Source: Bacillus sp. OxB-1
Lineage (GTDB): Bacteria; Bacillota; Bacilli; Bacillales_A; Planococcaceae
Assembly (NCBI RefSeq): GCF_000829195.1
Contig: NZ_AP013294.1
Coordinates: forward strand, 2,739,001 to 2,803,000
Length of the DNA stretch: 64,000 nucleotides
Direction of reading: 5' to 3'
Shown: piece after piece, positions 1,550 to 14,733 of the stretch
How positions within the stretch are numbered: position 1 is the first letter of the stretch
How the letters are laid out: the number at the start of each line of letters is the position of its first letter
Notes under the pieces: generated by a model
Database searches by the model: none
What the model was told of the DNA's origin: nothing
What the model saw: the letters and a program-made list of their open reading frames with translations, nothing else
Position numbers and translations under genes: made by a program

Positions 1550-2644
1550 TCATCGGATCACTTCAAATAAAACCGCAAGCCCGATTCCGCCGGCACTACC
1601 AATTGCGGCGAGCACATAATTTACGTCCTGCCTTCTCTGCACTTCATAAAAAAGTCGCGTCACTAAAATGGCTCCCGAGGCGCCGTAAGGATGGCCTGTC
1701 GTCAACGCACCGCCGGATACATTCAATTTCCCGTACGGAATCGACAGTTCCGTAGCGCATGCAATCATTTTAGATGCAAATGCTTCGTTGATTTCAATCA
1801 AATCGATATCTTCCATCGTCAATCCGTTACGTGCCAACAATGCTCGAATGGCCGGGATCGGCGACATGCCCGGATAATTCGGATGGATTCCGCTCACTTC
1901 ACTGTCCGCGAAGCGAAGCACTGCGCGCATGCCGAGTTCCGCGGCCAATTGTTCTTCCATGACGACAACCGCGGCAGCACCATCATGAATGCCGCAACTG
2001 TTCGCCGCCGTCACGGTGCCGTCCGCGTCAACTAGCGGCTTCGCCCTTTCTATTAATCGCGCCATATCCCGTTTTTTCTGAAACACTTCGTCCGACCGGA
2101 ATTCACCGAACGGAAGCACCTCTTCCGAATAAAACCCTTTCGTATACGCATCCCAGCTCAGCTCGTAACTCCGGAGCGCATACGCATCTTGCACATCCCG
2201 CGTCAACCCGTAATGCCGCGCGACATTTTCCGCCGCTACGACCATATCCGGATCCCCAAGAGCCGCCGGAGAGAATCGTGCCCGTTTCGGAAATGGCGAG
2301 GTGCTGGCGCTTTCCACCCCTCCCGCGATGTAGCACGTCCCGGCACCGGCCCGAATGAAAAGACACGCCGTTCGGATCGCTTCAAGGCCTGCGCTGCATT
2401 GCCGGTCAATTGTCATCCCGGAAACCGACAGGGCAAGCCCCGCCTCCAGGGCGGCGAAACGCGCCATATTTCCACCCGGACCGACGACATTGCCCAAAAT
2501 CACTTCATTCAGATGCTCCGTCACATTTCCGGCCACATGCCGAAGCAGCGGAGCAGCCAGCTGATGCGGCTCCACGTCTTTCAACACGCCGCCTTTTTTT
2601 CCGATCGGCGTCCGTTTCGCTTGCACGATGACTGCATTTTTAAT
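1550..2644 (-). CDS. yhfS: Thiolase-family protein (YhfS-like), probable ATT start
   Basis: A thiolase of about 364 residues. The acyl-accepting cysteine is visible in RQCSAGLEA, as are NEAFA and the catalytic histidine block GGALTTGHPYGASGA. The C-terminal CxG motif that supplies the second catalytic cysteine in biosynthetic and degradative thiolases is missing: the sequence reads AIGSAGGIG, with G where Cys is expected. Classical Claisen chemistry may therefore be impaired or altered. The natural N-terminus (KNAVIVQAKRTPIG) is preceded only by ATT at 2644, which overlaps the upstream stop as ATTAA and lies 9 bases after GGGGGAGG. An ATT start is therefore inferred; an upstream in-frame codon inside the ligase gene is less likely. 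The bioY-ligase-thiolase order matches B. subtilis yhfU-yhfT-yhfS. Confidence 0.8.
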   Translation of the reverse strand: MKNAVIVQAKRTPIGKKGGVLKDVEPHQLAAPLLRHVAGNVTEHLNEVILGNVVGPGGNMARFAALEAGLALSVSGMTIDRQCSAGLEAIRTACLFIRAGAGTCYIAGGVESASTSPFPKRARFSPAALGDPDMVVAAENVARHYGLTRDVQDAYALRSYELSWDAYTKGFYSEEVLPFGEFRSDEVFQKKRDMARLIERAKPLVDADGTVTAANSCGIHDGAAAVVVMEEQLAAELGMRAVLRFADSEVSGIHPNYPGMSPIPAIRALLARNGLTMEDIDLIEINEAFASKMIACATELSIPYGKLNVSGGALTTGHPYGASGAILVTRLFYEVQRRQDVNYVLAAIGSAGGIGLAVLFEVIR

Positions 2645-4100
2645 GTTCCATCGCCTCCCCCGGCAACAATTGCCGTAATCGATGCCGTTCAATTTTCCCG
2701 CTCGTCGTATAAGGGAATTGGTCGATGAATTGCCAGCGCCGCGGGCATTTGAATGTGGATAGATGCGCAAGGCAATGTTTTTGCAGTTGCTGTTTCGAAG
2801 CATCTCCGCGAATAAATGCGACAGGCACTTGCCCCCAATACGAATCCTCCACGCCGATTACCGCCGCTTCCTCCACCCCAGGATGGGCGTGCAAAATCGC
2901 CTCAATCTCTTCCGGATACACATTCTCCCCTCCGCAAATGATCATGCTGTTTTCACGTCCGTTCAGATAAAGAAATCCTTCTTCATCCAAATAGCCGATA
3001 TCATCCACAGTGATCCAGCCCGCTTCATCTTCAATGGACCGCAATTCATCATGAGGCGGCTGGATATATCCTGAAAAGAGGAATGGACTCCTGACATAAA
3101 CTTTGCCGACGCACCCGGTTTCGACTACTCTTCCATCGGCATCCCGAATTTGGAGTTCTACATGTTTACAAGCTTCACCGACAGAAGCCGGCTTCTTGCG
3201 ATTCGATTCATTATTGGAATAGGTAATGAAGCTCGTCTCGCTCGAACCGTAAAACTCATACATCGTAATATTCGGGAACTGAGAATGAATCTTCTCCTTG
3301 GAATGCTCATTCCATTTTGCACCAGATGAAATGATCGTCAGATGCTTCACCATACGTGTTCCGTTGGCAGCCATCGCCTCCACCATCGTCGGCACGACAT
3401 ACAATACAGAAATAGGGTAATCGTTTATCCGCTGCAATGCGGTCACCGGCGAAAACGTCTCCAATATGTATACCGAACTACCAAAATACAGTCCACAAAT
3501 CGCCCCATATAAAAAATGGGAATGGACAAGCGCTCCCGGAATGAGCACTTCATCCATCCCATTCAACTGAAAGTCGTATTGACTGCTTGAAAAACTCTGC
3601 ACCCACGATCGATCCGACCTGACAAACGCTTTCGGCCGACCTGTCGTGCCAGACGTGAAGCCCATGTAAAACAACCGTTCCTCGTCCTCTTCTTCATTCC
3701 ACGAATTCACCGCCCGCTGAATCTCCTCAACGATTTCTTCCCAGAAGAAGACTTCGGTATCCGTTCCATGGAATCGGCTAGCCAAACGTTTCGTTGTAAT
3801 TAAAAAAGAGGGTTTTGCTAAATCGAGGCGTTGCTGCAATTCATTCGCCTTCCATTTGACGTCGAAGGGAACTGCGATTTGACCCGCCATTGCCGCCCCT
3901 GCAAACAATTGTAAGAAGGGGATTCCATTGGGCACGAAAAGGCCGACTTTGCCCCGCCCTTCGATCTTTTCAGAAAACCAATTAGCTGTTCGGCAAACCA
4001 GTTCATGCCACGCGCGATACGTAATTTGCTCTCCCGCCGTATGGATGGCTATCTTATCAGGATGCGCCTCAGCATGGCGCGCGTATGTACTCGTAATCAA
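2640..4100 (-). CDS. yhfT: Acyl-CoA synthetase, AMP-forming (YhfT-like)
   Basis: A 486-residue member of the ANL superfamily that activates carboxylic acids via acyl-AMP to acyl-CoA. The P-loop-like motif YMGFTSGTTGRPKAF (about residues 147-161), the YEFYGSSE block, the TVDDIGYLD hinge region and the C-terminal lysine block PYTTSGKIERHRL are all present. The substrate cannot be read from sequence. Linkage to bioY and a thiolase suggests fatty-acid or pimelate-type chemistry linked to biotin supply, as proposed for the yhfUTS locus. The start is TTG at 4100 with GAGGAGG 8 bases upstream. It lies 21 bases after bioY and its stop overlaps the inferred thiolase start by one base, indicating translational coupling. 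Confidence 0.85.
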   Translation of the reverse strand: MITSTYARHAEAHPDKIAIHTAGEQITYRAWHELVCRTANWFSEKIEGRGKVGLFVPNGIPFLQLFAGAAMAGQIAVPFDVKWKANELQQRLDLAKPSFLITTKRLASRFHGTDTEVFFWEEIVEEIQRAVNSWNEEEDEERLFYMGFTSGTTGRPKAFVRSDRSWVQSFSSSQYDFQLNGMDEVLIPGALVHSHFLYGAICGLYFGSSVYILETFSPVTALQRINDYPISVLYVVPTMVEAMAANGTRMVKHLTIISSGAKWNEHSKEKIHSQFPNITMYEFYGSSETSFITYSNNESNRKKPASVGEACKHVELQIRDADGRVVETGCVGKVYVRSPFLFSGYIQPPHDELRSIEDEAGWITVDDIGYLDEEGFLYLNGRENSMIICGGENVYPEEIEAILHAHPGVEEAAVIGVEDSYWGQVPVAFIRGDASKQQLQKHCLAHLSTFKCPRRWQFIDQFPYTTSGKIERHRLRQLLPGEAMEH

Positions 4101-4121
4101 TTCCTCAGCCTCCTCGATCTG

Positions 4122-4673
4122 TTAACTATGAATCATACGTCGGTTGAATACCGGATACTTCTGCAATTGGACAATCAGTAAGGAAGCGATGGTTGCTTTC
4201 AGGGCATCCCCAGGCAAAAATAGCAAACTCGCTTTCGCCACATCCATGATCCCAAGCTCCATCACAAATGCCTGTACAGGCACCCCGATAGCATAAATAA
4301 GGAAAATACCGACCGTGAGATTCAACGGCAGCACGTTCCATAACTGGATTTTCGAAAAGCGCGCCTGAATCGCCCCGATACAAAAAGCCGTCACAGGCCA
4401 GGACAATAAATACCCCGCACTTGGACCTACAAAAACACCCAATCCTCCCCGACCGCCGGATAACAGCGGCAGTCCCGCCGCGACAACTAGCAAAAAGACG
4501 ATTTGGCTCATCGCTCCGAGCCGGGCCCCTAGCAAGCCCCCAGCCAACAGCACTCCTAACGTTTGCAGCGTAATCGGCACAGGCATCACCCCAATTGGAA
4601 TCGGCGGCATCAGCCCCAACACCCCCATCACCGCTGCAAACAACGCCACATTCGTCATGTCTCTCACATTCAT
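4122..4673 (-). CDS. bioY: Biotin transporter substrate-binding membrane protein BioY
   Basis: A hydrophobic protein of about 183 residues with roughly six membrane segments. It carries the BioY signature: a glycine-rich PIPIGVMPVPITLQTLGVLL stretch and the loop GGRGGLGVFVGPSAGYLL. BioY is the S component of ECF-type biotin uptake and can also work alone. ATG at 4673 is preferred over GTG at 4685 because AAGGTGGGG ends about 8 bases before it. It is the first gene of the bioY-yhfT-yhfS operon and has a good sigma-A-type promoter upstream. No convincing BirA operator was found. Confidence 0.9.
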   Translation of the reverse strand: MNVRDMTNVALFAAVMGVLGLMPPIPIGVMPVPITLQTLGVLLAGGLLGARLGAMSQIVFLLVVAAGLPLLSGGRGGLGVFVGPSAGYLLSWPVTAFCIGAIQARFSKIQLWNVLPLNLTVGIFLIYAIGVPVQAFVMELGIMDVAKASLLFLPGDALKATIASLLIVQLQKYPVFNRRMIHS

Positions 4674-4711
4674 CCATTTCCCCACCTTACAATACTTCGG
4701 TAATATTCACA

Positions 4712-4851: not shown

Positions 4852-5325
4852 TCACACAGTGGCGTTCAGCGCAGCCGTGCTCCCAAATTCGCCTGTATAA
4901 TACGTTAGCGCATCAGCATTCGTATACTCGAAGTTTCTCACTAAGCCGATATAAAGGACATGGTCCCCTCCGTCATATTCGGCCCAAGGCGTACATTCGA
5001 TGTACGCGAGCGACTCCGAAAGACGTGGGGCATGTTCGCCATTCACCCATCCCACCGGCTCCATTTCTTGCGGACGTCCCGCAAAATGCAGAGCCACCTC
5101 TTCCTGGGTAGAGGTGAGTATATTTACCGTAAATGAGTTGTCTTTCATATGACTGTACGCCTTCGTTTTGCGATCTATGGAGACCAACACGAGGGGAGGG
5201 TCTAACGATACGGACGTGAATGAATTTGCCGTAATTCCATGATTGCCGTTCTCTGTCCTGCATGTAACAACCGTGACACCCGTTGCAAACCGCCCCATGC
5301 AATTTCGAAACTCTCTCGGGTCCAT
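4852..5325 (-). CDS. Flavin reductase component of the two-component phenol/4-HPA monooxygenase
   Basis: A 157-residue protein of the flavin-reductase-like (HpaC/PheA2) family. It has the flavin-binding block ATGVTVVT near residue 15, then ITANSFTSVSLDPPLVLVS and the C-terminal DHVLYIGLV segment. It would reduce free FAD or FMN with NAD(P)H and hand the reduced flavin to the monooxygenase encoded at 6227-7771. The start is ATG with AAGGAGG upstream. A hairpin with a T run lies between it and the dioxygenase gene, so its level may be set lower than that of the genes before it. Confidence 0.88.
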   Translation of the reverse strand: MDPREFRNCMGRFATGVTVVTCRTENGNHGITANSFTSVSLDPPLVLVSIDRKTKAYSHMKDNSFTVNILTSTQEEVALHFAGRPQEMEPVGWVNGEHAPRLSESLAYIECTPWAEYDGGDHVLYIGLVRNFEYTNADALTYYTGEFGSTAALNATV

Positions 5326-5410: not shown

Positions 5411-6193
5411 TCAATTTTTACGCATTACAAAATCCAATGAGGATACTTTATAGCCATCCTTCTCTTCCAGCGTTGTCATCAAGTCCAAACGCACCCCATC
5501 TGCCACGTCCGTCTCAAGCCATTCATCGCCTTCAAAGAACACTTGCGTAATGAGCGTTTCATGCCCCTCCGCTTCGAACATTAGATGCAGATGCGCCGGA
5601 CGCATCGGATGCTGATCGGTGTACTCCAAAAACTCTCCTGTCGGGCCATCCGTCGGAATGGAATACGGAAGCGGAACGATTGTTTTCACTGTAAAATTCC
5701 CATTTTCATCTGTGAAGAAATGTCCCCTGAAATTATATCGAGGTGCATCCGAATCAAAGGCAGAATATTTTCCGGACGCATCATTTTGCCACATTTCCAC
5801 GCGGGCATTCGCAAGCGGTTTGCCGTCCGTACTGCTCACATTCCCGCTAAAGTACATCACTTCCCCAGCCTCATCAGGACGCTGCGTCAATTCAAGCGGT
5901 TTGCCGTCCTTCGCCTCGATTAAAGGCGATCCCTCAATGAAATACGGGCCCAAAAGGGAAGGCTGAGTGCCGGGCTTGTCTGTATACATCGCTCGCAGCA
6001 CATGGGTTTCCAAAAACACGTCCGCAAACAGCGGCAATTCCCCTTTGCGCCCCAGGCGATCCGCCCAATTCACGAAGTTTGTATATTCCTCGTGGTTCAA
6101 CTTCGCTTCTTGTAAGAAATTTTTCACGTGCTTAATAAATAAATCGAATACCTCTTCGACACGTTCGTTCTTTTTCGCGACCTGTTTAACCAT
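5411..6193 (-). CDS. catA: Intradiol ring-cleavage dioxygenase (catechol or hydroxyquinol 1,2-dioxygenase)
   Basis: A 260-residue member of the intradiol dioxygenase family, which opens catechols between the hydroxyl groups using Fe(III). The N-terminal dimerisation helices (about residues 1-90) are followed by the beta-sandwich core. Visible iron-ligand blocks are PRYNFRG, VPLPYSIPTDGPTG (Tyr) and RPAHLHL (two His). Length and layout fit catechol 1,2-dioxygenase or hydroxyquinol 1,2-dioxygenase. The muconate cycloisomerase in the same cluster favours catechol as substrate, giving cis,cis-muconate. ATG at 6193 has GGGGAGG upstream. It follows the monooxygenase gene by 33 bases and is probably co-transcribed with it. 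Confidence 0.87.
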   Translation of the reverse strand: MVKQVAKKNERVEEVFDLFIKHVKNFLQEAKLNHEEYTNFVNWADRLGRKGELPLFADVFLETHVLRAMYTDKPGTQPSLLGPYFIEGSPLIEAKDGKPLELTQRPDEAGEVMYFSGNVSSTDGKPLANARVEMWQNDASGKYSAFDSDAPRYNFRGHFFTDENGNFTVKTIVPLPYSIPTDGPTGEFLEYTDQHPMRPAHLHLMFEAEGHETLITQVFFEGDEWLETDVADGVRLDLMTTLEEKDGYKVSSLDFVMRKN

Positions 6194-6226: not shown

Positions 6227-7771
6227 TCATTTGTTCCGGTAAGCTTGGATATCATCATTATTGATCCAAGTCGGATTCACCCAGCCATCCAAGTCGTAGT
6301 CATCCATGCATTGCTGGACAAAGTCCTCGAACCCTTGGGCATTCCCGTTCGCTTGGGCGACAATCAAATTCTCCATTCGGATATTCTCGTTATTGCCCGA
6401 ATAATTCCGCTCATACAGTTCGTGACGGCCACCGTATTCCGTACCGATCGCGTCCCAAAGCAATTTAATCACTTTGATCTTCTCTTCCGCCTCAATCCCG
6501 TTGGATCCGCGGTACAGTTTGTCGATGAGTGGACGCAGCTCAGCATTTTTGAAGTCCATCGAACTGGAAGGCTGTACAATCAAGCTGCCTCCGACGACTG
6601 TCTCTACAATGTTTTTCACATGCGACCAGCCTTCCGACATGAACACGCGGTATGCCAACCCATAATTCAAGTTCGGCAGTACCGTTCCGTTTGCGCTTTT
6701 TTCCGGATTCAATGCCATCGCATCACTGAGTGCCCAGAACATATTCCGGTACGCGATGACTTCCCCTAAATTGGCTTGTACCCCCCGGAAGGTATCGGTT
6801 CCATTCCCTCGAAGCGCCTTGATTAACAAACCGGCAATAAAATCGAGCTTTACTGCGAACCTTGTCACGCCATGGAAAGTGAAGCGATGCAGGAAGCCGC
6901 TTTCCGCAAAGAAGCTGTTCGCTTTTTCGATATCCCGGTAAACGAGGACGTTTTCCCATGGTATGAGAGCGTTTTCAAAAACTAGCACAGAGTCATTTTC
7001 GTCGAAACGGCTGCTCAGCGGATAATCAAAAGGACTTCCTGTCACAGCTGCATTCATTTCGTAGGAGGAGCGGCAGACCAGTTTTACGCCAGGTGTATTC
7101 ATATCTGCGATAAAGACAAGTGCGTGTTCTTCCTTTGGAACGGCAAGGGCACCGTAATGTGCGACGAAGTTATAGTTGGTCAGCGCCGATCCGGTAGCGA
7201 CCATCTTTGCCCCGCTGACGAGGATGCCTTCTTCCGTCTCGCCAGTCGCGTGAACAAAGACATCTTTCACTTCGTCCAGCGGCTTATTGCGGTCGACTGG
7301 CGGATTGATGATTGCGTGATTGAAGAACCAGTTTTTCTCCTGTGCTTCTTTATACCATCTCCTCGCGTTGGCCTCGTATTTTCCGTAATATTGCGGATTG
7401 GCGCCTAATGTGGCCAGAAAGGAAGCTTTGTAATCTGGGGATCTTCCCATTTGCCCGTAGGACATTTTCGCCCAGGCCGCAATGGCATCCCGTGTTTTGA
7501 ATAAATCTTCCGCTGTTGTATCGGGCTGGAAAAACCGCTGCGTGAACCCGCCATTTCCTGTATCGGTTTTTCGTGTTAATGTAGCTTGATGTTCTGGATC
7601 ATGCAAAGCGTCATAAAGGCGTGCAATCGAACGGGCACTGTTCCGGAATGCCGGATGGGTCGTCACGTCTTTCACTCTCTCGCCGTGCAGCCAAATCTCA
7701 CGGTTGTCCTTGAGACTTTCAAGATACTCAGCGCCCGTCAACGGGACTCTAACAGCTTGTTGAGTTTTCAA
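6227..7771 (-). CDS. Flavin-dependent aromatic monooxygenase, HpaB/PheA1 family large component
   Basis: A 514-residue protein of the 4-hydroxyphenylacetate 3-monooxygenase family (acyl-CoA dehydrogenase fold). Characteristic blocks are the N-terminal TGAEYLESLKDNREIWLHGE, the mid region MNTPGVKLVCR and PWENVLVYRD, and the C-terminal GGRHELYERNYSGN. Such enzymes use reduced flavin from a separate reductase to ortho-hydroxylate phenols. The neighbours (intradiol dioxygenase, muconate cycloisomerase, XylR_N-type sensor) point to phenol -> catechol. 4-HPA or a chlorophenol cannot be excluded by sequence alone. The start is TTG at 7771 with AGGAGG 8 bases upstream. It is the first gene of the operon and lies directly downstream of its probable regulator. 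Confidence 0.88.
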   Translation of the reverse strand: MKTQQAVRVPLTGAEYLESLKDNREIWLHGERVKDVTTHPAFRNSARSIARLYDALHDPEHQATLTRKTDTGNGGFTQRFFQPDTTAEDLFKTRDAIAAWAKMSYGQMGRSPDYKASFLATLGANPQYYGKYEANARRWYKEAQEKNWFFNHAIINPPVDRNKPLDEVKDVFVHATGETEEGILVSGAKMVATGSALTNYNFVAHYGALAVPKEEHALVFIADMNTPGVKLVCRSSYEMNAAVTGSPFDYPLSSRFDENDSVLVFENALIPWENVLVYRDIEKANSFFAESGFLHRFTFHGVTRFAVKLDFIAGLLIKALRGNGTDTFRGVQANLGEVIAYRNMFWALSDAMALNPEKSANGTVLPNLNYGLAYRVFMSEGWSHVKNIVETVVGGSLIVQPSSSMDFKNAELRPLIDKLYRGSNGIEAEEKIKVIKLLWDAIGTEYGGRHELYERNYSGNNENIRMENLIVAQANGNAQGFEDFVQQCMDDYDLDGWVNPTWINNDDIQAYRNK

Positions 7772-7968: not shown

Positions 7969-9780
7969 TTATACTTCAATGGCGGTGTTCGAAGCATTAA
8001 TGATTTTCAAACCGAAGTAAATCCTGGTAGCGAGCTGCGCATTAAAGCGGCCCGAACCGGTCTTCAAATCAATATCGCTCAGCGATTCGATTTTCTCAAT
8101 CCGGTAACGCAAGCCTGCGATGGATAAATGCAGATCACATGCTGTCTGTTGAAGATTTCCGTTATTCTCCAAATACGATTTCAATGTAATGAGCAGATTA
8201 CCCGAATTTTCATCATCATAGTCCACTAACGTGCCTATGGTTTTCTTATAAAACTTGATCAGTTCTTGATGGTCGGCGCCATTTAAAAACATCATGATCC
8301 CTTCCAAATCATTGTAGGTCGCCACCCTGCTGCTTATCGGATACGTTAGTTGCACAAAATCACAAATCCGCGTGGCATCCACATAACTTTTCCCCATATC
8401 ATGGACTGTCTCCGCAATCCGTCCGGAACCGATATGCACAATAACATCCGGTAAATTCCGTTTAATGCAATTCATTAACCTCATCGAAATCTCTTGAACT
8501 TCTTGATCGTCGCTAGCGCCGACGATGATCACAATATAGTGATCTTTCATGAACAAATCCAATTTAGCATCGTTTTTCGTTAAGAAATGAAGCACTCGTT
8601 CTTTCATTGTTTCAGGAATAATTTTAAGGGTGATAATACAATGCGGTTCTTTTGTATTGAAGCCGAAAATAGCGGCTTGCCGGCTCAAATTCATAGTATC
8701 GATAAATTTATTTTCAATCATTTCATCAAAAAAATGCTCTCGTTTCGTCAACAGTGATTCAGTCATCTTACTTTGGTGATACATTTGAATGGTAAATACC
8801 ATGAGGGCCCGTTTAATAATTAAAATTTCCCTCTGGTTCGGCTTGCATTTTCCGATGATGGTCAAATTCCCAAGTTGCGTATTATGACTTTTCATCGTAA
8901 ACGATTCGAAAAACAACCCCTCCTGCTGATTTGTGATAACTCCGCTGTTCTTCCATTTTTGATAGGCGGCTTCCTCTCGGGGACAATGGAAATAAGAGGA
9001 ATACACCTCCTGATAATGATCGATGACAATGCTGCGGCCAAGGATGCGGCCCATCGCACTTGTCGTTTCGTTAATATCCTTCCCTTGCAGAAAAAGCTCT
9101 GTCAGCTGATTTTGCGCTTCTTCGGATTCGATGATATTTTTATTCAATTGTTCGATCTCTGAATAGACATCATCCAAAACAGCCTGCAAGGATTCGTTTT
9201 TATAGTAGCGCAAGTCTTTTAAATGTTCTTCATCGCAATGCGCTACCGTTTCAGCGACGAAATAACAGACCGTGTCCCCTTTTCCACAGCAGTATTTTTC
9301 GTACGCAACAACTTCTTTTTCAAATGCACTCGTTAAATAACCGCTGGCATAGCCGATCAGCGTCCAGCAAACCGCCTCACTGCTAATCTCTTTTTCCGTT
9401 AGGTGATTGATCACTTCGAATGAGTTTTTCCAGTACCCTGTAAAATACAAATGATCTCCATCGATTTCCAAAATATCGGGTTCCACCGTGACAATCCCTT
9501 CGAGGGTGTGCATGGCTGTCCCCGACATCACCAGTTCTTTTATACGTTTCCATTCATAGTTTTCCTTTAACGATTCGGCGGCTTGTTTCCCGCAAGCCCA
9601 TCCATAGCGCATTAAGAAACCTTTGGCCCGTTCTTTTCCGAGCGTATTTATTAAATCATGCCGTAAAATCCCTAAAGCCTGTATGGGAATTAACCCCATC
9701 CGTTTGTCATGGAGTTTAATGATTCCGGTGCGAGGATTGACATCAATCAAGTTTTGCAGCAATAACTGATTCGCTTTCAT
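7969..9780 (-). CDS. Aromatic-sensing regulator: XylR_N + V4R domains joined to a CdaR/PucR-type C-terminal HTH
   Basis: A regulator of about 603 residues. Residues 1-100 resemble XylR_N, the effector-binding domain of DmpR/XylR/MopR (RTGIIKLHDKRMGLIPIQAL, then RYGWACGKQAAESL). Residues about 125-190 resemble V4R, with the metal-site pattern E-x2-C-C-x3-G-x3-C (YEKYCCGKGDTVCYF), as in phenol sensors. There is no AAA+ sigma-54 module. Instead the middle resembles a GGDEF-like/PucR linker and the C-terminus (GNLQQTACDLHLSIAGLRYR) is a PucR/CdaR HTH. It is inferred to be a phenol-responsive activator of the downstream operon. ATG at 9780 is chosen because GGGAGAAGGA precedes it; the TTG at 9825 has no ribosome site. 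Confidence 0.8.
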   Translation of the reverse strand: MKANQLLLQNLIDVNPRTGIIKLHDKRMGLIPIQALGILRHDLINTLGKERAKGFLMRYGWACGKQAAESLKENYEWKRIKELVMSGTAMHTLEGIVTVEPDILEIDGDHLYFTGYWKNSFEVINHLTEKEISSEAVCWTLIGYASGYLTSAFEKEVVAYEKYCCGKGDTVCYFVAETVAHCDEEHLKDLRYYKNESLQAVLDDVYSEIEQLNKNIIESEEAQNQLTELFLQGKDINETTSAMGRILGRSIVIDHYQEVYSSYFHCPREEAAYQKWKNSGVITNQQEGLFFESFTMKSHNTQLGNLTIIGKCKPNQREILIIKRALMVFTIQMYHQSKMTESLLTKREHFFDEMIENKFIDTMNLSRQAAIFGFNTKEPHCIITLKIIPETMKERVLHFLTKNDAKLDLFMKDHYIVIIVGASDDQEVQEISMRLMNCIKRNLPDVIVHIGSGRIAETVHDMGKSYVDATRICDFVQLTYPISSRVATYNDLEGIMMFLNGADHQELIKFYKKTIGTLVDYDDENSGNLLITLKSYLENNGNLQQTACDLHLSIAGLRYRIEKIESLSDIDLKTGSGRFNAQLATRIYFGLKIINASNTAIEV

Positions 9781-9899
9781 CCTGTCCTTCTCCCTTTTTG
9801 TCGCAATTATTGTAAACGCTTTCAATACACTTCAAAGAACTTACAGCACGGGCATAAAGCATTCTTCCGACCAGGTTTCGTACGCACAGACTATCATTA

Positions 9900-10011: not shown

Positions 10012-10665
10012 TCACACTTTTTCTTGCTGGAAAACCTGCTCGCTGATGGTGTAAGCTGCCGTGGTGTTCGCTTGGACTTCTTCCAATGTGCTGTTTCCCA
10101 TCAGTTCCACAAGTTCATAATGATCGTCGCGCCATTGAAATACGGCCAAATCGGTAATGATCGTATCCGCCACCCGTTCGGATGTAATCGGGAACGTGCA
10201 TGTATCTACAAACTTAGGGCTGCCGTCATTCGCTGTATGGTTTGTTGTAATGATGATTCTTTTCGCACCTTCCAGCAAATCCATCGCGCCGCCGACACCG
10301 ATAATGTCTTTCCCCGGAATGGCCCAGTTCGCAATCCGTCCTTTCTCATCAATTTGCAGGGCACCGAGGATCGCCACGTCAATATGGCCCCCGCGGATCA
10401 TCCCGAACGAATCCGCACTGCTGAAATAAGAAGCACCGACCGCCTCCCCGACAGGCAGTTTCCCCGCATTCACAATCAGGGGATCGACATCTTTCTCTTC
10501 CACCGACGTGACTCCAAGCATGCCGTTTTCCGTGTGTAAAATATGCTGCGTGTCGTCAATATAATCCGCAACTAGCGTCGGAATCCCGATGCCCAGATTA
10601 ACAATCGAATGAGGAGACAATTCCTGCACCGCCCGTTTTGCGATCAGTTCCCTGCTGTTATCCAA
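10012..10665 (-). CDS. pcaJ: 3-oxoacid (3-oxoadipate) CoA-transferase subunit B
   Basis: A 217-residue beta subunit of a family I CoA-transferase. It shows SIVNLGIGIPTLVADY, the catalytic glutamate block HTENGMLGV (Glu attacks the CoA thioester) and the GGAMDLLEGAKRIIITT segment. With subunit A it would move CoA from succinyl-CoA to 3-oxoadipate. Specificity for 3-oxoadipate rather than acetoacetate is inferred from the catechol-branch neighbours. The start is TTG at 10665, after GGGGTGAGG, overlapping the end of subunit A by 8 bases. Confidence 0.85.
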   Translation of the reverse strand: MDNSRELIAKRAVQELSPHSIVNLGIGIPTLVADYIDDTQHILHTENGMLGVTSVEEKDVDPLIVNAGKLPVGEAVGASYFSSADSFGMIRGGHIDVAILGALQIDEKGRIANWAIPGKDIIGVGGAMDLLEGAKRIIITTNHTANDGSPKFVDTCTFPITSERVADTIITDLAVFQWRDDHYELVELMGNSTLEEVQANTTAAYTISEQVFQQEKV

Positions 10666-11350
10666 TCTGCCTCACCCCTTCTTTCGTTAACTCCCACTCA
10701 CTTTTGACGATGGCATCGACGAATAAATGAGGTGTCGTAATTTCTTCCGGAGACAACTCCCCCACCTCCACGATTTCGTCCACTTCCGCGATGACGAACG
10801 AAGCAGCTGTCGCCATATTCGGATTGAAATTACGCGCCGTTTTGTAATAAACCAAGTTGCCTAAACGATCCGCTTTCCAAGCCTTCACAATCGCGACATC
10901 CGCTGTCAAGCTCTCTTGCAGCAAGTAGGTCTCCCCTTTCAATTCCTTGACCTCTTTCCCTGCCGCCAAATCCGTTCCGACGGCCGTCTTCGTATAAAAT
11001 CCGCCGATCCCTGCTCCTCCGGCCCGGATTGCTTCGGACAACGTTCCTTGCGGCAACAGCTCCAGCTCGATCTTTCCTTCGTTATAAAATTTCGCCACGT
11101 CTCGGTTGCTTGTAAAATAAGAACCGATCGCCTTTTTTATTTTCCCTTGTCTTAGCAGCATGCCAAGACCTTTTCCGGCTTCCCCTACGTTGTTACTGAT
11201 CACGGTCAATTCATTCACATCATGCTCCGTCAAAGATTGAATGAGCGTCAGCGGACAGCCGATCAACCCAAACCCACCGACCATGATGGTTTGTCCCGAT
11301 TGAATATGGGCAAGCGCATCCGAAACGGACATTTGTTTGTCTTTATACAT
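10658..11350 (-). CDS. pcaI: 3-oxoacid (3-oxoadipate) CoA-transferase subunit A
   Basis: A 230-residue alpha subunit of a family I CoA-transferase. It has the glycine-rich GQTIMVGGFGLIGCPLTLI near residue 20, SNNVGEAGKGLGMLLRQGKI and SYFTSNRDVAKFY. It forms the heterodimer with the product of the overlapping downstream gene. ATG at 11350 has GAGGTGAAGGC just upstream and begins 4 bases after the stop of the hydrolase gene. The hydrolase, subunit A and subunit B are therefore tightly coupled. Confidence 0.86.
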   Translation of the reverse strand: MYKDKQMSVSDALAHIQSGQTIMVGGFGLIGCPLTLIQSLTEHDVNELTVISNNVGEAGKGLGMLLRQGKIKKAIGSYFTSNRDVAKFYNEGKIELELLPQGTLSEAIRAGGAGIGGFYTKTAVGTDLAAGKEVKELKGETYLLQESLTADVAIVKAWKADRLGNLVYYKTARNFNPNMATAASFVIAEVDEIVEVGELSPEEITTPHLFVDAIVKSEWELTKEGVRQIG

Positions 11351-11354
11351 GCCT

Positions 11355-12194
11355 TCACCTCTTCACAAATTGTCTTAAAAACGCACCAATGCTGTCTTCG
11401 ACTTCGGGTTGTTTTTCGAACATGAGCGTGTAATGGTTTGCCGGCACTTCTATTGTGGTGATATCCTTTGCTGCTGCAATGGTATCTGTATACGTTTCTT
11501 TGGTGAATAGAGACCCTTTTTCTCCTAATTTGCCGTTTGCAATTACCAGAAGGATGGGACAAGAAATCTTTTCAAACACCTTTTTCGGATGAAATTCATA
11601 AAAACTGTTAAAATCCTTCTCCATGTCGGATGATTCTGACTTATGTCGGTAGCCTTCCGCCGTTTTCTTCACTTCATATCGGGCAATGTCTTCAATGATT
11701 TCATCCCACTTGATATGCAGCGATTCATAAATCTTCCTCGTTTGGGCGACATAATCGTCTGGAGATTCATATGTCCTCTCCAATCGGCTCAACGAAGGTA
11801 GGATCAACTCGCGTTGCCGCTCTTCAGCCGTCCCTGCCCCATCCAGCAAAATCAGTGCTGCCACATCGATTTCGCTCGCCACTTGGGCGCAAATATAAGC
11901 TCCCATGGAATAGCCCATGAGGATCGGGCGTTCAATTTCATTTTTGGCAATAAACGCTTTCAAATCTTCCGCATGCCGAAACAAAGAACTCTGTTCATCT
12001 GCTGGACTGCTGTTCCCTCTGCCGCGCAAATCGTAAGTAATAAACCGGTATTCGTTTTCCAGCAGCTTTCTATAATGATAAAACGTTTTATGATTGCCTG
12101 TAAGTCCGTGCAGCGCAATGATGGTCCCTTTTTCTCCCGGCGTGTCGCGGCCCGCCAGTGTGACATCTTGTTCAAGATGAAATTCTTTTATCAT
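11355..12194 (-). CDS. Alpha/beta hydrolase, probable 3-oxoadipate enol-lactonase
   Basis: A 279-residue alpha/beta-hydrolase. It shows the oxyanion block LHGLTGNHKTF, the nucleophile elbow GYSMGAY, an acid in the strand before the late helices, and the catalytic-His region NHYTLMF. The cap domain (about residues 125-205) is helical. Its place between the muconate cycloisomerase/DUF3237 pair and the CoA-transferase is what would be expected for PcaD-like hydrolysis of 3-oxoadipate enol-lactone to 3-oxoadipate. The function rests on context, because the family is very broad. ATG at 12194 has GGCGGTGG upstream. Confidence 0.72.
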   Translation of the reverse strand: MIKEFHLEQDVTLAGRDTPGEKGTIIALHGLTGNHKTFYHYRKLLENEYRFITYDLRGRGNSSPADEQSSLFRHAEDLKAFIAKNEIERPILMGYSMGAYICAQVASEIDVAALILLDGAGTAEERQRELILPSLSRLERTYESPDDYVAQTRKIYESLHIKWDEIIEDIARYEVKKTAEGYRHKSESSDMEKDFNSFYEFHPKKVFEKISCPILLVIANGKLGEKGSLFTKETYTDTIAAAKDITTIEVPANHYTLMFEKQPEVEDSIGAFLRQFVKR

Positions 12195-12208: not shown

Positions 12209-12676
12209 TTAATCTACTTGATAAACAGAATATTTTACTCCCGTTGCCAACCGCTGTCCTGTGGAAACGAAGATTCTTTTATTCAGCCAATCGTATTTTT
12301 CAGATGCTGTCTCAAATACTGGATTCGTTCTGAAATAATACTCGTCGACAGCTACTTCTTCGCTTCGATCCAGCCGGGCCAGTACCTCTTTCGGCCCCGT
12401 CCGGATTCCTCTGTAAGACATCATGATCAGTTCTTCATCATCGGTTTGAAGTAAAATACGAACGTCCTGGATAATGGTCCCGTCTTCCCGAACCGTGATC
12501 CAGTCGTCTCCGCCGGGGATGACTTTTCCACTTACGTCCCCACCGCCAAAACGACCGCCCTCCACCCGGATAATCCGTCTCGTTCCGATCGGCGTCGTCC
12601 CGGGCAAATGCGCTTTTTCAACTTGCAGCTCCAGGTCAAATAAAAATGTTAAACGAGGTGCTTCAAAATAAGCCAT
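12209..12676 (-). CDS. DUF3237 family protein in the position of muconolactone isomerase
   Basis: A protein of about 155 residues matching the DUF3237 pattern: an N-terminal APRLTFLFDLELQVEKA strand, then GTRRIIRVEGGRFGGGDVSGKVIPGGDDW, IIQDVRILLQTDD, MMSYRGIRTGP and a C-terminal YDWLNKRIFVSTGQR. DUF3237 proteins form a small beta-barrel and have no confirmed enzymatic role known to me. ATG at 12676 is preferred: AGGTGG lies 9 bases upstream, and it overlaps the end of the cycloisomerase gene by 14 bases, implying translational coupling. No CatC-like muconolactone isomerase is found in the window. This is the only unassigned gene in the pathway operon, so a role on muconolactone or the enol-lactone is suggested. 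Confidence 0.8.
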   Translation of the reverse strand: MAYFEAPRLTFLFDLELQVEKAHLPGTTPIGTRRIIRVEGGRFGGGDVSGKVIPGGDDWITVREDGTIIQDVRILLQTDDEELIMMSYRGIRTGPKEVLARLDRSEEVAVDEYYFRTNPVFETASEKYDWLNKRIFVSTGQRLATGVKYSVYQVD

Positions 12677-13805
12677 TGGCGAGTGCCACCTGCTTTCTTT
12701 TATATTTTTCAATCTTCAACTCATCCAATTCGACACCTAATCCCGGTCCGGAAGGGATCAAGATTTTGCCATCCTGAAACTCCAGCGGATTTTTCACTAG
12801 ATCATCTGCAAGCCATTGCGGCCCGAATGTTTCGCAACCGTAGTCCAAATTTCTCAGCACGCCGAACGCATGGATACTTGCCGCCGATCCAATGGAACTT
12901 TCAAGCGACGTCCCGCCGAAACAGGAAATCCCCGCTGCCTCTGCAATCGCTGCCACTTTCAGCGTGTTTCGCATCCCACCCGATTTATGGATTTTAAGGG
13001 AGAAAATATCCGCTGCTCTTTCTTGGGCGAGGCGTTGCGCATCTTGAATGGTCGCGACGCTTTCGTCCGCCATGACAGGTACTTTTTTCATCTCCACCAA
13101 TTTGGCTGCCCCTTCAAAATCCAACGGAGAGAGCGGCTGTTCCAGGAAGTCGACCCCCGCTTCGTTTAGCCGATCCATCCATCTGACCGTCGTACCTCTG
13201 TCCCACGAACCATTCGGGTCAATCCCGATTGTGGAAATTCCCCGCAGGCCCTCCGCAATTTTAACTGCACGTTCCGCATCCGCAGCCGGCTCGAATTTTC
13301 CTGCTTTAATTTTAAAATTTTTATATTGCTTGCTGCGGACAAGCTCTTTACCTTCTTCGATATCGCCGTCCGCATCTCCTGTCGCCAACGCCCATTTCAC
13401 ATCGATCGCTTCTTGATATAAACCGCCCAGTAATTGGTGGACCGGTGCATTGTAGATTTTGCCGACGACATCAAAAAGCGCCATTTCCACTGTCGCTTTT
13501 GCAAATGGATTGGCGCGTACATGACGATCGAACGACTGCAATAACCGCTCTATATTTCTTGGGTCCTGTCCGATGAGAAGCGGTTTGATGTATTGCTCAA
13601 TGACAAGCTGCATCGTCTCGGTACTTTCGCCATTCCACCAAATGCCCGGTGTCGTTCCTTCTCCAATCCCAATAAGACCATTCTCCAACTCTACTTGAAT
13701 GATGACGAAACTTTTCGTTGATACAATTTCGGTGGAAAATTGATGAGGTCTCTTGATGGGAACATCCACAATGACGGATTGAAGCTGTTTAATCGCTGTT
13801 TTCAT
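12663..13805 (-). CDS. catB: Muconate cycloisomerase (enolase superfamily)
   Basis: A 380-residue muconate-lactonising enzyme. It shows the KxK base motif in FKIKAGK, metal ligands in IDPNGSW, FLEQPL and MADES, and the second catalytic lysine in SLKIHKSGG. These define the MLE subgroup of the enolase superfamily. The reaction inferred is cis,cis-muconate to muconolactone. Dipeptide epimerase or N-succinylamino-acid racemase activity is possible in this subgroup, but the flanking aromatic genes favour muconate. ATG at 13805 follows GAGGAGAATCAGG. It is the first gene of the operon, opposite an IclR regulator. Confidence 0.85.
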   Translation of the reverse strand: MKTAIKQLQSVIVDVPIKRPHQFSTEIVSTKSFVIIQVELENGLIGIGEGTTPGIWWNGESTETMQLVIEQYIKPLLIGQDPRNIERLLQSFDRHVRANPFAKATVEMALFDVVGKIYNAPVHQLLGGLYQEAIDVKWALATGDADGDIEEGKELVRSKQYKNFKIKAGKFEPAADAERAVKIAEGLRGISTIGIDPNGSWDRGTTVRWMDRLNEAGVDFLEQPLSPLDFEGAAKLVEMKKVPVMADESVATIQDAQRLAQERAADIFSLKIHKSGGMRNTLKVAAIAEAAGISCFGGTSLESSIGSAASIHAFGVLRNLDYGCETFGPQWLADDLVKNPLEFQDGKILIPSGPGLGVELDELKIEKYKRKQVALANGLF

Positions 13806-13900: not shown

Positions 13901-13932
13901 TTAATATAAACATGAAAGTAAGGAGATTGTCA

Positions 13933-14733
13933 ATGGAACTTTCAAATAATTCTATTAATAATGCTGATTTTATCCAATCATTGGAACGCGGTTTACTGGT
14001 AATTCAAGCATTTTCACATGAACATCCAACACTCACTGTAACCGACGCTGCGAAAATTACGGGATTGAGCCGGCCAGCGGTACGCAGAATATTGCTGACA
14101 TTGGAAAGTTTAGGGTTTGCTACATCGGAGGAAGGCCATTTTTCGCTAACCGCCCGAGTCCTTTCATTAGGCTACTCTTATCTGTCTTCCAAAAACATTT
14201 GGGAAATCGTCCATCCTCATATGAGAAAACTAGTCGAACAAACAGGAGAATCGACTTCCATTTCCGTTTTGGATGGAACAGACATTATCTATGTCGCCAG
14301 AATCCCGACAAAACGGATCATGACCATTTCTTTGGAAGTGGGCTCCAAATTGCCGGCCTACGCAACCTCCATGGGACAAGTGTTGCTGGCGTATTTATCT
14401 GAAGAAGAAAAGGAGCAGTTTTTCAAGGAGATTCATCTACAATCATTCACTAAACAAACAGTGGTCGATCCAGACTCCTTACGGGCACGACTGGAGCGAA
14501 TAAAGAAAGATGGCTGGGTATTGGTGGAACAGCAATTGGAAGAAGGACTCAGCTCGTTAGCAGCTCCCATCCGGAATCATGAAGGGAAAACAGTGGCTGC
14601 GATCAATATTTCATCGCATGCCGATCGGATAAATAGCGAGCTCATCGAAGAAAAATTTCTTCCCCTGTTGTTGCAAGCCGCCGATCATATCAGCTCGGAC
14701 CTGTCCAAATCACATCGGATCACCCACCTATGA
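13933..14733 (+). CDS. IclR-family transcriptional regulator (PcaR/CatR-like role)
   Basis: A regulator of about 266 residues. The N-terminal winged HTH (SLERGLLVIQAFSHEHPTLTV, then DAAKITGLSRPAVRRILLTL) is followed by the IclR effector domain, with LGYSYLSS, LEVGSKLPAYATSMGQVLLA and the late EGLSSLAAPI block. The IclR/PcaR group commonly controls protocatechuate and catechol degradation and binds beta-ketoadipate or muconate-type effectors. ATG at 13933 is chosen because AAGGAG lies 7 bases before it; an in-frame ATG at 13912 lacks a site. It is transcribed away from catB across the palindromic operator. Confidence 0.87.
   Translation: MELSNNSINNADFIQSLERGLLVIQAFSHEHPTLTVTDAAKITGLSRPAVRRILLTLESLGFATSEEGHFSLTARVLSLGYSYLSSKNIWEIVHPHMRKLVEQTGESTSISVLDGTDIIYVARIPTKRIMTISLEVGSKLPAYATSMGQVLLAYLSEEEKEQFFKEIHLQSFTKQTVVDPDSLRARLERIKKDGWVLVEQQLEEGLSSLAAPIRNHEGKTVAAINISSHADRINSELIEEKFLPLLLQAADHISSDLSKSHRITHL

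Follow-up and report, generated by a model that had tools for sequence, protein, structure and literature searches.

The catabolic cluster of Bacillus sp. OxB-1 raises the question of which protein converts muconolactone to 3-oxoadipate enol-lactone when no gene for the isomerase CatC is present. This step is a 1,3 proton shift in which the gamma-hydrogen is taken off and the alpha-carbon is protonated. We analyzed a stretch of 64,000 nucleotides (the window), in which the initial annotation had noted a gene for a DUF3237 protein at the position expected for catC. We conclude that this protein is probably an analogous, non-homologous muconolactone delta-isomerase, a function that we infer from gene context.

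The gene order places the DUF3237 gene between catB and a hydrolase gene. catB (12663..13805, minus strand) codes for a muconate cycloisomerase that scored 405.3 bits against TIGR02534 (cut-off 334.95), and its best solved relative is a chloromuconate cycloisomerase (E 1.6e-92, vs 2e-47 for an Ala-Glu epimerase). The DUF3237 gene (12209..12676, minus strand) codes for 155 amino acids that belong to PF11578 by sequence (154.9 bits, cut-off 24). This was the sole family matched, with no match to the CatC family, PF02426. We assigned its start to the ATG at 12676; a TTG frame reaching 12712 is merely the longest mechanical reading frame. The ATG falls within the last catB codons, just downstream of a ribosome-binding-like AGGTGG, and the sequence agrees with the 14-bp overlap of the two genes described earlier (12663..12676). 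Another 14 bp separate the DUF3237 stop from the start of an alpha/beta hydrolase gene (11355..12194), which is followed by genes for 3-oxoacid CoA-transferase subunits A (10658..11350; above the TIGR02429 cut-off) and B (10012..10665; above that of TIGR02428), all on the minus strand.

The rest of the cluster also lies on the minus strand, apart from a PcaR/PcaU-type IclR regulator gene that is divergent from catB (13912..14733, plus strand; TIGR02431, 328 bits, above cut-off). A second regulator with XylR_N, V4R and PucR-type domains (7969..9825; PF06505, PF02830, PF13556) scored 109 bits against the NCBIfam MobR model, below its cut-off. It is followed by an HpaB-type flavin-dependent monooxygenase (6227..7771; PF11794/PF03241), which is probably a phenol hydroxylase, by the catechol 1,2-dioxygenase CatA (5411..6193; PF00775/PF04444) and by the flavin reductase of the monooxygenase (4852..5325; PF01613). 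Downstream of the reductase gene, at 2640-4685, an AMP-binding acyl-CoA synthetase gene adjoins a BioY biotin transporter gene. The cluster neighbors scanned included no thiolase gene.

The cluster was first described as covering every step from phenol to 3-oxoadipyl-CoA other than the CatC reaction. This stands for catB and both CoA-transferase subunits, whereas three other products fell below their model cut-offs. The HpaB-type protein reached 692 bits against HpaB-2 (cut-off 885), and CatA did not reach the NCBIfam equivalog cut-offs. The hydrolase scored 37.3 bits against the PcaD model TIGR02427 (cut-off 255.85) and matched PF00561. It is therefore not recognized as a PcaD, which counts against the isomerase reading, and we treat it as a candidate 3-oxoadipate enol-lactonase on the basis of its context. 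The low CatA and HpaB scores would also suit a pathway different from catechol degradation via muconolactone, in which DUF3237 and the CMD proteins described below would perform another step. We consider such a pathway very unlikely, since CatB is above its cut-off and closest to chloromuconate and muconate cycloisomerases, and the nearest solved relatives of CatA are chlorocatechol and catechol 1,2-dioxygenases.

The initial annotation saw no CatC gene in the window and named a phenol-induced catC elsewhere in the genome as grounds for dropping its proposal. We searched the whole genome, a single contig of 3,594,618 bp, with PF02426 and obtained 0 matches; the same search was positive in a C. 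glutamicum control. The absence thus extends to the entire genome, and a hidden CatC is ruled out as far as PF02426 is concerned. DUF3237 is single-copy in this genome. We also considered other stand-ins. The one EthD-family protein, a candidate for another ferredoxin-type isomerase, is encoded in the phenylacetate (paa) operon (G000:C1:1229837-1230073; L202:4721-5113). The two proteins with a carboxymuconolactone-decarboxylase (CMD) domain are small (130 and 147 amino acids), are encoded outside the cluster and did not match a query of the type found in the sister clusters described below.

We surveyed 261 genomes of the order, all from one family and spanning 19 genera. The nearest named relatives by protein, and the genomes of the same genus, are from Sporosarcina, which is probably also the genus of this strain. 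TIGR02534 exceeded its cut-off in 43 of them (339-476 bits; the next group scored 274 and below), PF11578 was present in 13 and PF02426 in 4. Each of the 43 cycloisomerase genomes contained either DUF3237 (11 genomes) or a CMD protein of about 240 amino acids (32 genomes). None contained both, none lacked both and none contained CatC. The association of DUF3237 with the cycloisomerase (Fisher p = 4.5e-8) and, within the 43, the mutual exclusion of DUF3237 and CMD proteins (p = 1.7e-10) are inflated in significance by kinship, as related genomes are not independent observations. Replacement of CatC by DUF3237 is well supported by comparative genomics (11 + 32 = 43 of 43, no overlap). The co-occurrence expected in CatB genomes without CatC was borne out for 11 of the 43, and the other 32 have the CMD protein instead.

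The catB neighborhoods repeated this division. Including the window, we examined 43 neighborhoods, of which 10 plus the window were of the DUF3237 type, 29 were of the CMD type and 3 contained neither gene in the catB stretch. The last three genomes each encode a CMD protein elsewhere, in a separate HpaB-CMD-catA cluster (G173, G204) or in a cluster truncated where the contig stops (G174). Outside the 43, DUF3237 occurred in two genomes (G235, G240). Their proteins, and second copies in G206 and G216, scored 63-114 against the window protein, vs 176-335 for the cluster proteins. The four genomes with PF02426 proteins are all outside the 43. In one of them, the gene lies among thioesterase, peptidase-type hydrolase, nitronate-monooxygenase-type and carotenoid-oxygenase-type genes (L083:3654-8084), apparently not a catechol pathway, and the other three show the same neighbor families.

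The CMD family is named after an enzyme that acts on carboxylated muconolactone and yields the same enol-lactone. The protein of about 240 amino acids occupies the CatC slot in loci L036-L039, L047-L054, L058-L060, L062-L066, L068-L071 and L073-L078 (for example L036:6847-7578, minus strand), and we regard it as a second candidate muconolactone isomerase. Three cluster CMD proteins scored 28.3, 21.5 and 23.1 bits against the PcaC model TIGR02425, far below its cut-off of 155.7. Many catB clusters also contain an SLC13-type (PF00939) transporter gene (L036:7600-9282), whose product may carry muconate or dicarboxylates. We searched the complete gene sets with one cluster CMD protein and obtained matches in 53 of the 261 genomes at E <= 1e-15, including one (G140) whose match is a 55-residue fragment.

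The CMD protein was also found in 21 genomes of the order sample that have no cycloisomerase. Modules without muconate cycloisomerase are found at L185-L189 and L194. Five such loci share a module of hydrolase, CMD, CoA-transferase and thiolase genes, followed by a second CMD protein, and one or two of the modules include a short-chain fatty acid transporter and a 3-hydroxyacyl-CoA dehydrogenase (Pfam). The occurrence of CMD proteins without a cycloisomerase counts against the isomerase reading. These modules lend some weight to the view that the clusters serve another pathway, and they indicate that the presence of a CMD protein alone does not mean muconolactone.

We built a quick tree of 67 CatB sequences, excluding fragments under 330 amino acids and duplicate loci. 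CatB of Bacillota falls into two deeply split lineages, both above the same model cut-off and separated by long branches of 1.45 and 1.55 with a support of 100. Lineage A, which includes the window CatB, comprises 24 sequences from DUF3237 clusters and 1 from a genome that has its DUF3237 elsewhere. Lineage B comprises 29 with CMD, 11 with DUF3237 and 2 with CMD elsewhere; L112 forms a long branch whose placement is unsure. A hybrid cluster in G206 (L055:7106-9749) combines a DUF3237 and a hydrolase that resemble those of the window with a CatB of lineage B, which groups with six CatBs from CMD clusters (support 99). No CMD protein was found in a whole-genome search of G206. The tree and the hybrid cluster indicate that DUF3237 works beside both kinds of CatB, and that one kind of CatB takes either partner.

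We extended the analysis beyond the family by scanning 84,980 species genomes with an alignment of 11 cluster DUF3237 proteins, requiring a match to one of two short peptides. All counts given here refer to the 80 of 90 loci kept. At 33 loci the protein was 54-88% identical, and these close loci are all from Bacillota, in about 20 genera; the other 47 showed 32-47% identity, and a CatA-like gene was present at just one of them (L152). The close loci contain CatB (30 of 33), CatA (29), a hydrolase gene directly downstream of DUF3237 (30), thiolase (27), CoA-transferase A (26), HpaB (16) and CMD (1). Gene orders vary, with DUF3237 after catB, after catA or after thiolase. Where the adjoining hydrolase gene is missing, the locus is at a contig end (L091), the gene is lost (L118) or, for L114, an IS110-type transposase occupies that position in L072, the other locus of this genome. 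HpaB was detected at just 16 close loci, so we rejected the idea that DUF3237 marks the presence of a phenol hydroxylase, and the clusters without detected HpaB argue further against a role in some other pathway.

CatC was absent from all 32 genomes of the close loci, of which seven are apparently also in the order sample. A CMD protein was found in one of the 26 such genomes searched, that of Aquisalibacillus. There, a DUF3237-hydrolase pair adjoins a distantly related CMD protein (29% identity), away from catA-catB (L103), which counts against the isomerase reading. Among 348 genomes sampled evenly across the class, 11 contained a cycloisomerase; two of these are outside the family, one with a DUF3237 cluster and one with a CMD cluster.

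Two further genomes also count against the isomerase reading. Filobacillus (L116:9125-11350) and Tenuibacillus (L118:9158-10465) have kept catA and DUF3237 and have lost catB and hpaB. Neither genome has a cycloisomerase above the cut-off, and no remnant of catB was found at either locus. Both DUF3237 proteins carry R34Q, one has W59C and the other Y88N. The loss of these conserved residues suggests decay, though dN is well below dS; the pattern fits either decay or a different role for DUF3237. One such role would be to lactonize muconate or to handle a mis-formed or substituted lactone, for example from chloro- or methylcatechol. PhnH, a DUF3237 relative described below, is reported to add oxygen to an alkene intramolecularly, which is in keeping with lactonization, as are these two genomes. 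We nevertheless judge this role improbable. With CatB at 30 of the 33 close loci there is no need for a second lactonizing enzyme, the isomerization step would be left without a gene, and the complementarity with CMD points past lactonization.

The best reading is that CatC is replaced by either of two unrelated proteins, DUF3237 or the CMD protein, both of which would shift the double bond in muconolactone. It is supported by the absence of CatC from the complete genome, from all 43 cycloisomerase genomes and from the 32 genomes of the wider loci, by the complementarity of DUF3237 and CMD in one slot, by the occurrence of DUF3237 with both CatB lineages and in several gene orders, mostly with the hydrolase next to it, including the partner swap at L055, and by the reaction after which the CMD family is named. 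CatB would make muconolactone, and DUF3237, translated right after it, would abstract the gamma-hydrogen from the lactone ring and protonate the alpha-carbon without a cofactor to give 3-oxoadipate enol-lactone. The downstream hydrolase would open the enol-lactone to 3-oxoadipate, which the CoA-transferase would activate. The CMD-domain protein would carry out the isomerization in other members of the family. With somewhat less confidence, we favor the broader view that CatC was displaced in Bacillota by two mutually unrelated and freely exchangeable proteins, and that DUF3237 accomplishes the proton shift in muconolactone with a third type of structure.

The predicted structure of the window protein is a confident all-beta barrel with the fold of solved PF11578 members. 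CatC has a ferredoxin-like fold and was not among the structure matches listed for the barrel model, a ranked list in which absence does not exclude a match. R33 and R92 are near-invariant in the DUF3237 alignment. Given an acid/base pair and one of these arginines to hold the anion, a small barrel could isomerize muconolactone without a cofactor. The initial annotation knew of no established catalysis by DUF3237 proteins, which proved wrong, since reactions have been reported for PhnH, PinX and PhcF/PhcG. PhnH from Penicillium herquei (PDB 6jjs/6jjt) is described as acting by phenol deprotonation with proton transfer from a glutamate. In our profile alignment, Glu104 of PhnH, which may be this residue, aligns with Tyr88 in the window protein. 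PinX, with a DUF3237 domain, is reported to catalyze decarboxylation with furan opening, and PhcG and PhcF are given as 42 and 38% identical to it. On these accounts, DUF3237 relatives carry out proton chemistry on oxygen heterocycles and alkenes without a cofactor, which further supports an isomerase.

These reported activities also bear on whether DUF3237 might be non-catalytic, with a lactone-binding, regulatory or protective role, while the hydrolase, CatB or an unrecognized protein isomerizes muconolactone. No activity is known in this DUF3237 clade, and a hydrolase that matches PcaD so poorly could have a broader role. However, DUF3237 and CMD clusters alike contain the hydrolase, so the either-or pattern would go unexplained, and the characterized relatives are enzymes. 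The location of the EthD protein in the phenylacetate operon, and the small size and different type of the two CMD proteins of the genome, likewise speak against another isomerase. We therefore regard a non-catalytic DUF3237 as unlikely.

Our literature search, which drew on partial texts, found no paper naming DUF3237 as a muconolactone isomerase. A 2017 article (PMC5595782) states that the literature contained no fungal muconolactone isomerase sequence. Another study reports that deleting AN4061 in A. nidulans causes muconolactone to accumulate on salicylate (PMC12388069). By this phenotype, a eukaryotic muconolactone isomerase is known genetically, and the novelty of the DUF3237 role may shrink, depending on the protein family of AN4061. 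If our reading is true, it fills a missing step of the catechol branch in many Bacillota, assigns a function to one clade of a family of unknown function and gives the DUF3237 barrel family its first role in central metabolism. It would also be a clear case of one enzyme being replaced repeatedly by unrelated ones. The reading predicts a testable activity for one small, well-folded protein and a second, independent isomerase in the CMD protein. Genome annotation pipelines currently score these catechol pathways as broken, and muconolactone-forming pathways are useful for making muconate and adipate precursors.

We compared the window protein with known systems. CatC (PF02426) shares the proposed reaction and the place in the pathway, between CatB and the enol-lactone hydrolase, but has no sequence match to the DUF3237 protein, which is modeled as a beta barrel. 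PhnH differs in acting in a fungal natural-product cyclization. The lignan and phenylcoumaran decarboxylases PinX, PhcF and PhcG, as far as the reports available describe them, share with the window protein a place in bacterial aromatics catabolism and chemistry at a ring oxygen; they differ in catalyzing decarboxylation with ring opening, in belonging to sphingomonads and in their gene neighbors. Five plasmid contexts of DUF3237 relatives were opened, two of them unannotated, and the three annotated ones contained no cat genes. On a Roseinatronobacter plasmid, two DUF3237 genes lie between GMC oxidoreductase, carotenoid oxygenase and aldehyde dehydrogenase genes (L200:7001-11102), a set that resembles that of the phenylcoumaran (Phc) pathway. 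PcaC, the 4-carboxymuconolactone decarboxylase, forms the same enol-lactone that we propose for DUF3237. PcaC and the cluster CMD proteins are unrelated in sequence to DUF3237, yet it is a CMD protein that holds the same slot in 32 of the 43 genomes.
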